From an uncultured Verrucomicrobiota bacterium (GTDB lineage Bacteria; Verrucomicrobiota; Kiritimatiellia; Kiritimatiellales; Tichowtungiaceae): DNA of 64,000 bases. The DNA lies in contig CAIKGD010000042.1 in assembly GCA_903826865.1 (NCBI GenBank), forward strand, positions 1-64,000, in the 5' to 3' direction. A program made the translations under genes and the position numbers. Under the pieces are notes generated by a model. It was not told where the DNA came from and did not search any database. It worked only from the letters and a program-made list of their open reading frames with translations. Positions 4,511 through 11,392 of the stretch are shown piece after piece; positions within the stretch are counted from its first letter, which is position 1; every line of letters starts with the position of its first letter.

Positions 4511-4564
4511 TGCGGCAGGCATCCGTGCCTGCCTTTTATGCGCAGGCAGGGATGCCTGCGCCAC
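4511..4564. repeat. REP-like double palindrome
   Basis: Two neighbouring imperfect palindromes (GGCAGGCATCCGTGCCTGCC and the GCAGGCAGGGATGCCTGC type) end in GCGCCAC. The layout matches the elements at 8587, 9304, 9907 and 10558, although this copy has diverged most in its left arm. It lies in the 471-base gap between the two glycosidase-like genes. Confidence 0.75.
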
Positions 4565-8586: not shown

Positions 8587-8642
8587 GTGGCGCAGGCGCC
8601 CCCGCCTGCGAAAAGGGATGGCAGACGGGGCGTCTGCCCCAC
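8587..8642. repeat. REP-like double palindrome between folE and recN
   Basis: GTGGCGCAGGCGCCCCCGCC... and ...GGCAGACGGGGCGTCTGCCCCAC form two imperfect hairpins with a short A-rich spacer, bounded by GTGG and CCAC. Same family as 9304, 9907 and 10558. Confidence 0.85.
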
Positions 8643-9303: not shown

Positions 9304-9356
9304 GTGGGGCAGACGCCCTCGTCTGCCATTTGTTCGCAGGCAGGGGCTCCTGCCAC
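9304..9356. repeat. REP-like double palindrome between the CCA-adding enzyme gene and folE
   Basis: GTGGGGCAGACGCCCTCGTC... followed by a T-rich spacer and CGCAGGCAGGGGCTCCTGCCAC. It ends three bases from the stop codon of the CCA-adding enzyme gene. Confidence 0.88.
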
Positions 9357-9358
9357 AT

Positions 9359-11392
9359 TTAGACCAACTGTGCTTTCAGCCAGTCGAGAAGGGCGGTACG
9401 GTCTTCAAAGCGGGTTTCGAGCTGGGCGTCATAAGCGAGCTGGATCAGTTCGCCCATGCGCGAACCGGGCGCGACGCCGAGTTCCTGCAGGTCTTTGCCG
9501 GTAATCCATCGTTCGGGCAGGATCGGTTCGCTCTTCATCGCCTCGGCTTTTTCGAGCAGGAACTGGTAGTTGTCGAGCAGGCGGTGACTGCCGGCGCAGT
9601 CAAGGCGGTGCAGTTCGAGTTCGAGATCAAAGGTTTCGGCGCCCATCAGTTTGCGCAGGGTGGATTTATTCATTTTCTGCACGTCTTTGAAACGCATGTG
9701 GCGGTCAATCGCGGTGACGATCTGCCGGATTTCTTTTACCGGCAGTTTTAAACGGCGCAGAATTTCTTCGGCCATCTCGGCGCTTTTGCGGTCGTGTCCG
9801 TGGAACCGCAGGCGGTCTGCGGCGAGTACCGCCGTGGCCGGTTTTCCGATATCGTGAAGAAGGGCCGTATAAGCCAGCAGTTTTTTGAAATTGTCTGGTT
9901 TTGATGGTGGGGCAGACGCCCTCGTCTGCCATTTTTCCGCAGGCGAGGGCGCCTGCGCCACCGGTTTTTCCGCAGGCGAGGGCGTCTGCGCCACCGGTTT
10001 TTCCGCAGACGAGGGCGTCTGCGCCACAAAGAGAGAATACTCATCATTTTTCAAATGAGCTTTTTCCGGGTTGCCCTGAATGTAACGTATAAAGTTCTCA
10101 AGATGAGATTGGCTTCTGACGATGTGGTCAAATGATTCGTCCAACCAGAAAGGCCCGATCCGGTTTAACAGCCGGTTTATTTTTCTTGCAGAGATACTTT
10201 TCCAGGTTCGCACAAGATTACTGAGATCAACATTCTCATAAGGTGCTGTCAGTATGTGAACATGGTTGGGCATGATGACATAAGCCAGCAGCTCATATTG
10301 AATACCGTTTTCATGAAGTAACGTGCTTTCCAACAGAGCACGGCAGCGACTGTTTCTCAAATGACATTCCCCATATCCTTGATCCAATGCCGCTTCCTTT
10401 TCTTCGGTAAATTTCAATTCCTGCTGTTTTGAAATCGGGAGCGAGTCGTTTGTTCTGAATGTGATGAAATAGATTCGGTTCTGTTGCTGCCAATGAGGCA
10501 GTCGGCGGTGAGTTCTGTGGATTTCTCCATCCAGTGATCGGAAGGGGGAGTTTTCTGCAGGGCAGACGCCCTCGTCTGCTGTTTTTCCGCAGGCGGGGGT
10601 GCCTGCGCCACAGTTTTTCATGAGATTGAGCATGAGAACAGTATGTTCAAAGACGTCGCCTTCGGGATGAAACTGCGGCGGCTGTTCCTGTCCGATCATC
10701 GGAAGAATTTCAGGGATGATGAACTTCATCAGACCGAGTTCAACCAGTTCGCGCAGGGCATCGCCGGGCCGGATGCTTTCGGTGAGGGTGCGCGAAAATT
10801 CGTTTTCGATGCGCTCGGCACTGATTTTTGCGAGATCCGGCGCATGCTTTTGAATCGCGGCGCGGGTGGCGGGTTCGATCGTAAAGCCGAGCGTATGCGC
10901 AAAGCGTACGGCACGCAGCATGCGCAGATGGTCTTCGGCAAAACGCTTTTCCGGCTCGCCAATGGCGCGGATTATTTTTTTCTGCAGGTCTTCCTGACCG
11001 CCGACGTAGTCGATAACTTTTTTTTCGACCGGATCATAGAACATTCCGTTGACGGTAAAGTCGCGGCGTTTGGCGTCTTCTTCGGCACCGCAGAAGTGGA
11101 TGGAGTCGGGACGGCGTCCGTCCTGGTAGCCGCTGTCGGCGCGGAAAGTGGCGACCTCGGTTCCGGTGCCGTCCTGCACGACGACGATGACGCCGAATGC
11201 CTTGCCGACCGCGACAGTTTTCGGAAAGAGCGCTTCGATCTGATCAGGAGTGGCGCTGGTGGCCACATCATAGTCTTTGGCTTCGCGTCCGAGCAGTTTG
11301 TCGCGCACAGAGCCGCCCGCGAAGAAGGCGGTAAAACCTGCCTTGCGGATTTGCTTCAGAATTTCCAACGCGGTATGCTCACTGCTGTCCAT
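9359..11392 (-). CDS. CCA-adding enzyme (tRNA nucleotidyltransferase/poly(A) polymerase family) with an in-frame RAYT insertion
   Basis: Residues 1-260 are a normal class II nucleotidyltransferase: the GGSVRD motif (26-31), the catalytic DYD (40-42), RRDFTVNGM and RFAEDHLRMLRAVRF. Residues 498-677 are the rest of the HD domain (LLHDIGKPAT, HD at 513-514) and tail. Between them lie ~237 foreign residues that split the HD domain after its first histidine (FEHTVLML, H250): a REP-derived stretch, a RAYT transposase domain (HUH motif MPNHVHIL, catalytic-type Tyr in RYIQGNPEKA) and three 11-residue REP-encoded repeats. The frame is never broken, giving 677 codons instead of the ~440 expected. The nucleotidyltransferase adds or repairs the CCA end of tRNA and is normally essential, so the fusion is probably tolerated; whether the HD domain still folds is unknown. 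Confidence 0.9.
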   Translation of the reverse strand: MDSSEHTALEILKQIRKAGFTAFFAGGSVRDKLLGREAKDYDVATSATPDQIEALFPKTVAVGKAFGVIVVVQDGTGTEVATFRADSGYQDGRRPDSIHFCGAEEDAKRRDFTVNGMFYDPVEKKVIDYVGGQEDLQKKIIRAIGEPEKRFAEDHLRMLRAVRFAHTLGFTIEPATRAAIQKHAPDLAKISAERIENEFSRTLTESIRPGDALRELVELGLMKFIIPEILPMIGQEQPPQFHPEGDVFEHTVLMLNLMKNCGAGTPACGKTADEGVCPAENSPFRSLDGEIHRTHRRLPHWQQQNRIYFITFRTNDSLPISKQQELKFTEEKEAALDQGYGECHLRNSRCRALLESTLLHENGIQYELLAYVIMPNHVHILTAPYENVDLSNLVRTWKSISARKINRLLNRIGPFWLDESFDHIVRSQSHLENFIRYIQGNPEKAHLKNDEYSLFVAQTPSSAEKPVAQTPSPAEKPVAQAPSPAEKWQTRASAPPSKPDNFKKLLAYTALLHDIGKPATAVLAADRLRFHGHDRKSAEMAEEILRRLKLPVKEIRQIVTAIDRHMRFKDVQKMNKSTLRKLMGAETFDLELELHRLDCAGSHRLLDNYQFLLEKAEAMKSEPILPERWITGKDLQELGVAPGSRMGELIQLAYDAQLETRFEDRTALLDWLKAQLV
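9907..10027. repeat. REP array with two extra 33-base units, translated in frame
   Basis: One full double palindrome (9907-9961) is followed by two 33-base direct repeats (9962-9994, 9995-10027), each starting CGGTTTTTCCGCAG and ending GTCTGCGCCAC. Because 33 is a multiple of three, the host frame is kept and the array encodes VAQTPSSAEKP, VAQTPSPAEKP and VAQAPSPAEKW on the minus strand. It forms the 3' flank of the RAYT insertion. Confidence 0.9.
10028..10557 (-). mobile_element. RAYT (REP-associated tyrosine transposase, Y1/HUH family) embedded in the CCA-adding enzyme gene
   Basis: On the minus strand, within the 677-residue frame, residues ~281-452 carry the RAYT hallmarks: RRLPHWQQQNRIYFITFR, YVIMPNHVHIL with the HUH pair H377/H379, GPFWLDESFDHIVRS, and FIRYIQGNPEKA with the presumed catalytic Tyr437. 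It is bounded on both sides by REP-like palindromes (9907-10027 and 10558-10611), the single-stranded substrates such enzymes are known to act on. The whole foreign block spans about 9901-10613. No in-frame ATG is present at its expected N-terminus, so it is probably made only as part of the fusion or from a non-ATG start. Confidence 0.9.
10558..10611. repeat. REP-like double palindrome at the 5' flank of the embedded RAYT
   Basis: CAGGGCAGACGCCCTCGTCTG, a T-rich spacer, and CGCAGGCGGGGGTGCCTGCG CCAC. It is translated as CGAGTPACGKTADEGVCPA on the minus strand and joins the first half of the CCA-adding enzyme (…MLNLMKN) to the RAYT domain. Confidence 0.9.

Follow-up and report, generated by a model that had tools for sequence, protein, structure and literature searches.

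The gene encoding the CCA-adding enzyme (cca) of an uncultured Verrucomicrobiota bacterium contains, in the orientation and reading frame of the host gene, an entire RAYT transposase bordered by REPs. Comparison with related genomes and with other host genes suggests, as the best reading, that this arrangement represents a recurrent life style of REP-linked transposases and no freak fusion. The gene lies in a stretch of 64,000 nucleotides, hereafter the window, from a draft genome (G000) of 2.64 Mb that is 98% complete and consists of 88 contigs.

The cca frame occupies window positions 9359–11392 on the minus strand, encodes 677 aa and contains no internal stop codon. Pfam matches divide the product into PolyA_pol (residues 22–142), PolyA_pol_RNAbd (169–229), Y1_Tnp (364–440) and HD (501–572), and NCBIfam assigns the N-terminal part to CCA tRNA nucleotidyltransferase and residues 347–447 to REP_Tyr_transpos. 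The ends of the product, with their PolyA_pol, RNA-binding, HD and C-terminal matches, are those of a class II CCA-adding enzyme, and the middle is a Y1 HUH transposase. The host N-terminal part, delimited by Pfam and alignment (residues 1–260; 10613–11392, minus strand), comprises the nucleotidyltransferase head, the RNA-binding domain and the first HD helices; the host C-terminal part, delimited by Pfam and motifs (9359–9900, minus strand), comprises the HD pair (LLHDIG, 9845–9862) and the C-terminal domain. Motifs of a class II nucleotidyltransferase are preserved, as is the HD pair (GGSVRD, DYD, RRDFTVNG, EDHLRMLRA and LLHDIG), and by these motifs the interrupted gene would encode a functional CCA-adding enzyme. 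The host codon positions are under strong constraint. No second intact cca was found in the genome; the sole paralogue (C48, L002) exceeds the cut-off score for pcnB and is clearly a pcnB gene. No tRNA genes were found in the window. In a model of the full-length fusion, the insert loop sits between predicted helices 247–259 and 500–514, and the REP-coded linkers around the RAYT are predicted to be disordered (pLDDT <50); the host part of this model is of low confidence (pTM 0.43), and use of the model below is therefore limited to the RAYT fold and the linker disorder. Relatives of cca, sought in viral contigs to deepen the alignment for the model, were not found there.

Alignment with the empty-site genes of close relatives places the start of the insert directly behind Asn260, at 10612, and its end at about 9901. 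It begins with a REP of two hairpins (10560–10611, translated CGAGTPACGKTADEGVCPA), followed by the RAYT coding region (10025–10540), which has neither a start nor a stop codon of its own and contains the HUH motif MPNHVH (residues 374–379; 10256–10273) and the tyrosine motif RYIQGNP (Tyr437; 10067–10087). Two further REP hairpin units (9966–10028, translated VAQTPSSAEKP VAQTPSPAEKP) and a full REP with a double hairpin and GTGG/CCAC feet (9907–9961) make up the C-terminal side; all these elements are on the minus strand. The REP units adjoining the RAYT are oriented towards it with opposite feet; on the N-terminal side the foot is degenerate. Two intergenic REPs of the same family lie directly downstream of cca (9306–9354) and between recN and folE (8587–8642). 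The REPs fold much better than shuffled sequence (z −4.0 to −5.3). Nine intact copies are open in all six frames, which for the copies taken one by one is not unusual given their base composition. The preliminary description had placed an insertion with flanking REPs and a RAYT with HUH and tyrosine motifs at about 9901–10613, in host orientation and frame, free of stop codons and splitting the HD domain. The mapping agrees with it on every count: hairpins stand on both sides, the motifs are intact, a single minus-strand frame runs through, and the insert lies in the HD loop with LLHD of the HD pair preserved beyond it.

The RAYT matches Pfam Y1_Tnp over the cut-off and NCBIfam REP_Tyr_transpos with an E-value of 2.7e-19 and 69.5 bits, below that family's own cut-off of 80. 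A sequence search of solved structures gave no match. Its AF2 model (pLDDT 89) has as its best solved match the E. coli TnpA_REP-REP complex (4ER8; Z 13.8, rmsd 2.6, 133 residues), and the domain is accordingly predicted to fold like E. coli TnpA_REP. The residues H377/H379 and Tyr437 are invariant in alignments of 30 and 46 sequences. By its motifs, sequence family, predicted fold and inverted, dispersed REP flanks, the element qualifies as a RAYT. It lacks one trait, a start and a stop that would make it an independent gene; described RAYTs usually have them, but the catalytic definition of the family does not depend on them.

The site of the insert was compared among relatives, most of which are represented by metagenome bins. 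A RAYT is present at one codon site in four of the 13 readable cca genes of the genus (G000, G010, G007 and G012), where the filled sites hold 245–311 aa. Seven species of the genus have an empty site that reads LMLNLMKN-PSRV-LAYTVLLHDVGKP or close to it, G003 has 30 aa consisting of a REP only, and G009 has a 20-aa linker. The sister family adds five species (G473, G479, G483, G465 and G477) with a RAYT at the identical site, bringing the architecture to nine genomes in total, and G441 with a REP-only scar. Carriers differ in the length and sequence of the linkers around the RAYT. Other families also have long cca frames (G468, G466, G499, G316 and G431), which were considered as further carriers; they contain no insert at the site and were therefore left out of the count. 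The G477 insert (L311) is 494 aa long and consists of the RAYT followed by tandem repeats of the C-terminal stretch and REP peptides, all in frame.

Two RAYT lineages occupy the cca site, lineage A in G000 and G010 and lineage B in G007 and G012. The RAYTs are 69% identical within each pair; between G000 and G007 they are only 42% identical, compared with 82% for the cca host genes. One insert inherited by simple vertical descent does not explain these identities well, and they appear to be better explained by two arrivals at one codon site or by allele transfer. The host gene tree is weakly resolved and the RAYT quartet is not significantly rejected (AU p 0.11). Host gene topology was therefore discarded as proof of independent insertion, the case for which is based on the 42% and 82% identities together with the differing REP families. 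Movement of the RAYT gene itself and recombination of whole cca alleles both fit these data.

The distribution of the REPs was determined in 14 genomes, several of them incomplete and four of them carriers. The family of lineage A (GTGGCGCAGGCG...) has 13 matches in G000, 12 in G010, 1 in G012 and 0 in the other eleven genomes, and the lineage B family (GTGGAGCAGACAC...) is represented 30 times in G007, 23 times in G012 and 0–4 times elsewhere; reversed-pattern controls gave 0 or 1 matches. Four of the 13 family-A matches in G000 fall in cca, and without the cca copies the counts are 9 (G000), 8 (G010), 23 (G007) and 18 (G012). No family-A REPs were found near the other three Y1 transposases of G000, which are divergent ORFs (L050, L052 and L053, on C55, C7 and C9); REP-like matches near L053 were set aside as chance. 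Since REP dispersal follows the embedded lineage, it provides the strongest indication that the RAYT, though start-less, is expressed and acts in trans, and the cca-embedded RAYT apparently still spreads its repeats. A degenerate family-A hairpin with two mismatches is also present in the window at 4541–4564.

REPs are also found in frame inside other genes of G000, namely at two places in alaS (C41: 55385–55434 and 55718–55767; L003/L005/L006) and in leuS (L013, C37:20581–20630), pabB (L012, C85:5558–5607) and an RlmI-like rRNA methyltransferase gene (L011, C68:15597). Both alaS sites carry REPs of differing families in G000, G003, G013 and G007, and the alaS region holds family A copies in G010 and family B copies in G007. 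In G001 the alaS sites and the cca site are empty, which marks the REPs at these places as in-frame insertions. The priA gene of G000 (L325, C12:26800–30500) contains a short in-frame scar, SNVEAAGMPLPP, which retains both edges of the G013/G010 insert and no RAYT, and which probably resulted from in-frame loss of an embedded RAYT. The priA RAYTs of G003–G005 contain a nested in-frame peptide coded by a REP; in L083 (G003) and L082 (G005) it sits between the N-terminal part and the HUH motif.

With the fusion as query, the genus yielded embedded RAYTs in priA of seven species, in xseA of three, in hypF of two and in a B12 radical-SAM gene. Of 150 RAYT matches listed for the phylum (388 genomes), 55 lie in frames of at least 440 aa and 87 in frames shorter than 300 aa, embedding rates that are biased upward by a query profile built from embedded RAYTs and by the choice of 56 embedded loci that were fetched for their long frames. 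Chance long frames were considered and rejected, as the matches split into two size groups and many of the cases checked have Pfam host domains flanking the RAYT. Hosts confirmed by Pfam are LeuS, ValS, CarB, MetH, PriA, XseA, HypF and RarA, as well as Eco57I-type and MmeI-type methylases, HsdR, glycosyltransferases and others. Embedded RAYTs occur in seven phyla (Verrucomicrobiota, Pseudomonadota, Bacteroidota, Ignavibacteriota, Chloroflexota, Methylomirabilota and Planctomycetota), and one carrier, Flavobacterium branchiophilum NBRC 15030, with its RAYT in an Eco57I-type gene, is in culture. Embedded and free-standing forms intermingle in a phylogeny of 122 RAYTs, with 17 changes between the two compared with a shuffled mean of 36; at least five of these changes are forced by well-supported branches. 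RAYTs of one host gene usually cluster, even across genera, families or phyla. Like cca, priA has two RAYT lineages in the same place, and the Eco57I-type methylases have several distinct lineages, seemingly at one place.

To explain these observations, we propose that a non-splicing, intein-like RAYT uses the translation of an essential gene and still moves REPs in trans, which we consider probable in view of the open frame, the intact motifs, the recurrence, the empty and scar alleles, the purifying selection described below and the match between REPs and RAYT lineages. A REP-RAYT-REP element would have entered the single cca gene, in its orientation and frame, at the loop that joins two helices of the HD domain. 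With neither a start nor a stop codon, the RAYT would be produced solely as an inner domain of the CCA-adding enzyme, to which flexible linkers encoded by the REPs would tether it. The fused RAYT would keep its catalytic site and would cut and rejoin cognate REP hairpins as single strands, so that REPs could spread through the genome and would be found in frame where they landed and survived in coding sequence. Residence in an essential gene would supply free transcription and translation and would make most deletions or frameshifts of the RAYT harmful to the host. The cca loop would then be one of several preferred tolerant sites, along with those in priA, xseA, leuS, valS, carB, metH, restriction-modification genes and others, which would be filled repeatedly by different RAYT lineages with the residence and recurrence of inteins and without splicing. 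We infer, in this scheme, that the insert is translated, that the fused RAYT is active, that the RAYT itself is mobile and that selection works as described.

The alternative that survives best, unlikely as it appears, is that the RAYT is released as a separate protein by internal initiation or by proteolysis of the linkers, with cca serving as a mere docking place. The predicted disorder of the linkers makes cleavage into a free RAYT easy to imagine, and 29 of 65 embedded RAYTs have an ATG, GTG or TTG within 5–30 codons upstream of the core. The window gene, however, contains none of these three codons between host Met258 and the RAYT core, and an ATG at 5–30 codons upstream is much rarer in embedded than in free-standing RAYTs (9 of 65 vs 38 of 47; Fisher p 8e-13). 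Moreover, embedded RAYTs have also lost the stop codon, a loss that a separate gene would not need, and their frame continues through REP peptides into the host.

If frame were kept only by the essentiality of cca, the insert could instead be an inert passenger, a harmless translated domain or scar in a tolerant loop, and keeping the frame would by itself require no RAYT function. The REP-only in-frame scars in cca of G003 and in alaS (twice), leuS, pabB and the RlmI-like methyltransferase gene of G000 are in line with such tolerance. HUH is present in all embedded RAYTs aligned, and Tyr is replaced, by His, in a single one, the priA RAYT of G004; some copies may thus be dying. We nevertheless judge an inert passenger improbable, since the RAYT core is constrained as a protein. 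Between G000 and G010, differences by codon position are 0.244/0.160/0.506 in the core and 0.216/0.196/0.176 in the right-hand REP linker, and 14 pairs of embedded RAYTs have dN of 0.13–0.56 with dS mostly above 1.4 or saturated. Judged by these substitution patterns, embedded RAYTs evolve under protein-like purifying selection and the right-hand linker does not; a mere open frame would not slow changes at first and second positions. The invariance of the catalytic residues in 46 aligned RAYTs and the dispersal of cognate REPs only where the embedded lineage is present also count against an inert passenger.

Purifying selection, together with occupation of the same site across two families, could also mean that the host has co-opted the RAYT domain for a useful DNA-binding or regulatory property of cca, priA, leuS, metH and other products, and free-standing RAYTs have indeed been described as domesticated transposases (PMC8266576). 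Such co-option seems about as doubtful as a passenger: seven close relatives without the insert have an otherwise normal cca, the host genes share nothing obvious, and the residues for DNA cleavage are kept. Removal of the insert before or during translation, by RNA splicing, protein splicing or ribosome hopping, would be compatible with the strong hairpins at both ends and is nonetheless very improbable, given that no Hint or intein domain is found among the Pfam and NCBIfam matches of the product, that the embedded cases examined stay open in frame, a property that an intron or a bypassed stretch could do without, and that the linkers differ in length and sequence among carriers. An assembly or binning artefact or a decaying cca copy, conceivable for a draft of 88 contigs whose relatives are mostly bins, is for practical purposes refuted by the identical architecture and site in nine genomes, the single cca of a 98% complete genome, its strongly constrained host codon positions and an embedded case in a cultured Flavobacterium.

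Inteins with homing endonucleases are in-frame parasites of conserved genes, with recurrent sites, empty and filled alleles and differing lineages at each site. The intein-like character suggested by the preliminary description stands as regards residence, since RAYTs sit at one cca site in many species, other alleles of that site are empty, and more than one lineage has occupied it. It does not extend to mechanism: inteins splice, whereas the cca insert has an open frame and no intein or Hint domain; the host enzyme would have to work with the insert present, and in place of a homing endonuclease the insert encodes a single-strand HUH enzyme. The same description had proposed that a mobile element had become a translated loop of a normally essential enzyme and that the RAYT might be expressed with no start codon of its own; the relatives, the codon-level selection and the missing start codons favor both, translation being presumed. 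Its view of the case as very unusual gives way to recurrence in the genus, the sister family, other host genes and seven phyla. The broad class, the fixed sites in many host genes and the tracking of the embedded RAYT lineage by REP dispersal go beyond it.

Known RAYT/TnpA_REP systems (REPtrons) resemble the window element in the HUH motif with one Tyr, the TnpA_REP fold, the inverted REP flanks with a GTGG "double foot", the single copy and REP numbers that follow the RAYT. Described RAYTs are free-standing with their own start and stop; the window RAYT lacks both and shares the reading frame of an unrelated gene that surrounds it. In the literature RAYTs generally figure as domesticated, immobile, free-standing genes with no evidence of mobility (PMC6006769, PMC8266576). 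In subclass 2.4 RAYTs, REPs with GT[AG]G...C[TC]AC double feet occur in frame within the tnpA_REP gene itself (PMC6006769); a possible link to this subclass (RAYT group 4) is suggested by two traits, the double foot of the G000 REPs and the REP peptide in the priA RAYTs of G003–G005. Stop-free in-frame intragenic REPs/RPE in conserved proteins have been reported from Opitutus terrae, Rickettsia conorii, Xanthomonas and others, including Verrucomicrobia (PMC3733652), and the alaS, leuS, pabB and RlmI-like cases of G000 are of the same kind. Those known inserts encode at most 82 aa and no enzyme, in contrast to the whole transposase found inside the host protein here. IS200/IS605 transposases have a related Y1 HUH fold (Z about 12–13), but the best match of the window RAYT is TnpA_REP, and REPs replace the IS ends. 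In-frame REPs are thus already known; in-frame RAYTs within host genes appear to be new, no description of them having been found in the open-access literature, to which the search was confined.

We lean towards regarding the embedded RAYTs as an undescribed class of HUH transposases, start-less and non-splicing, that occupy fixed loops of restriction-modification and essential genes in seven or more phyla. They would be expressed as internal domains of host enzymes, from which they would move their REPs and might also transfer themselves to the corresponding site in related genomes. A codon site that is filled in some species, empty in others and scarred in yet others, and that houses distinct RAYT lineages in similar host genes, offers natural test material for RAYT mobility, and embedding suggests a route by which a transposase could become hard to delete without splicing. 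A whole catalytic domain appears to be tolerated inside tRNA and replication enzymes, and long genes annotated as cca, priA or leuS may hide an unnoticed transposase.

RAYTs in restriction genes recur in Verrucomicrobiota, Bacteroidota, Ignavibacteriota, Methylomirabilota and Pseudomonadota. They include type IIG (Eco57I-like) loci (L217, L239, L240, L116, L134 and L173) and HsdR loci (L220, L129, L224 and L133), and type IIG and HsdR genes may carry RAYTs between phyla.
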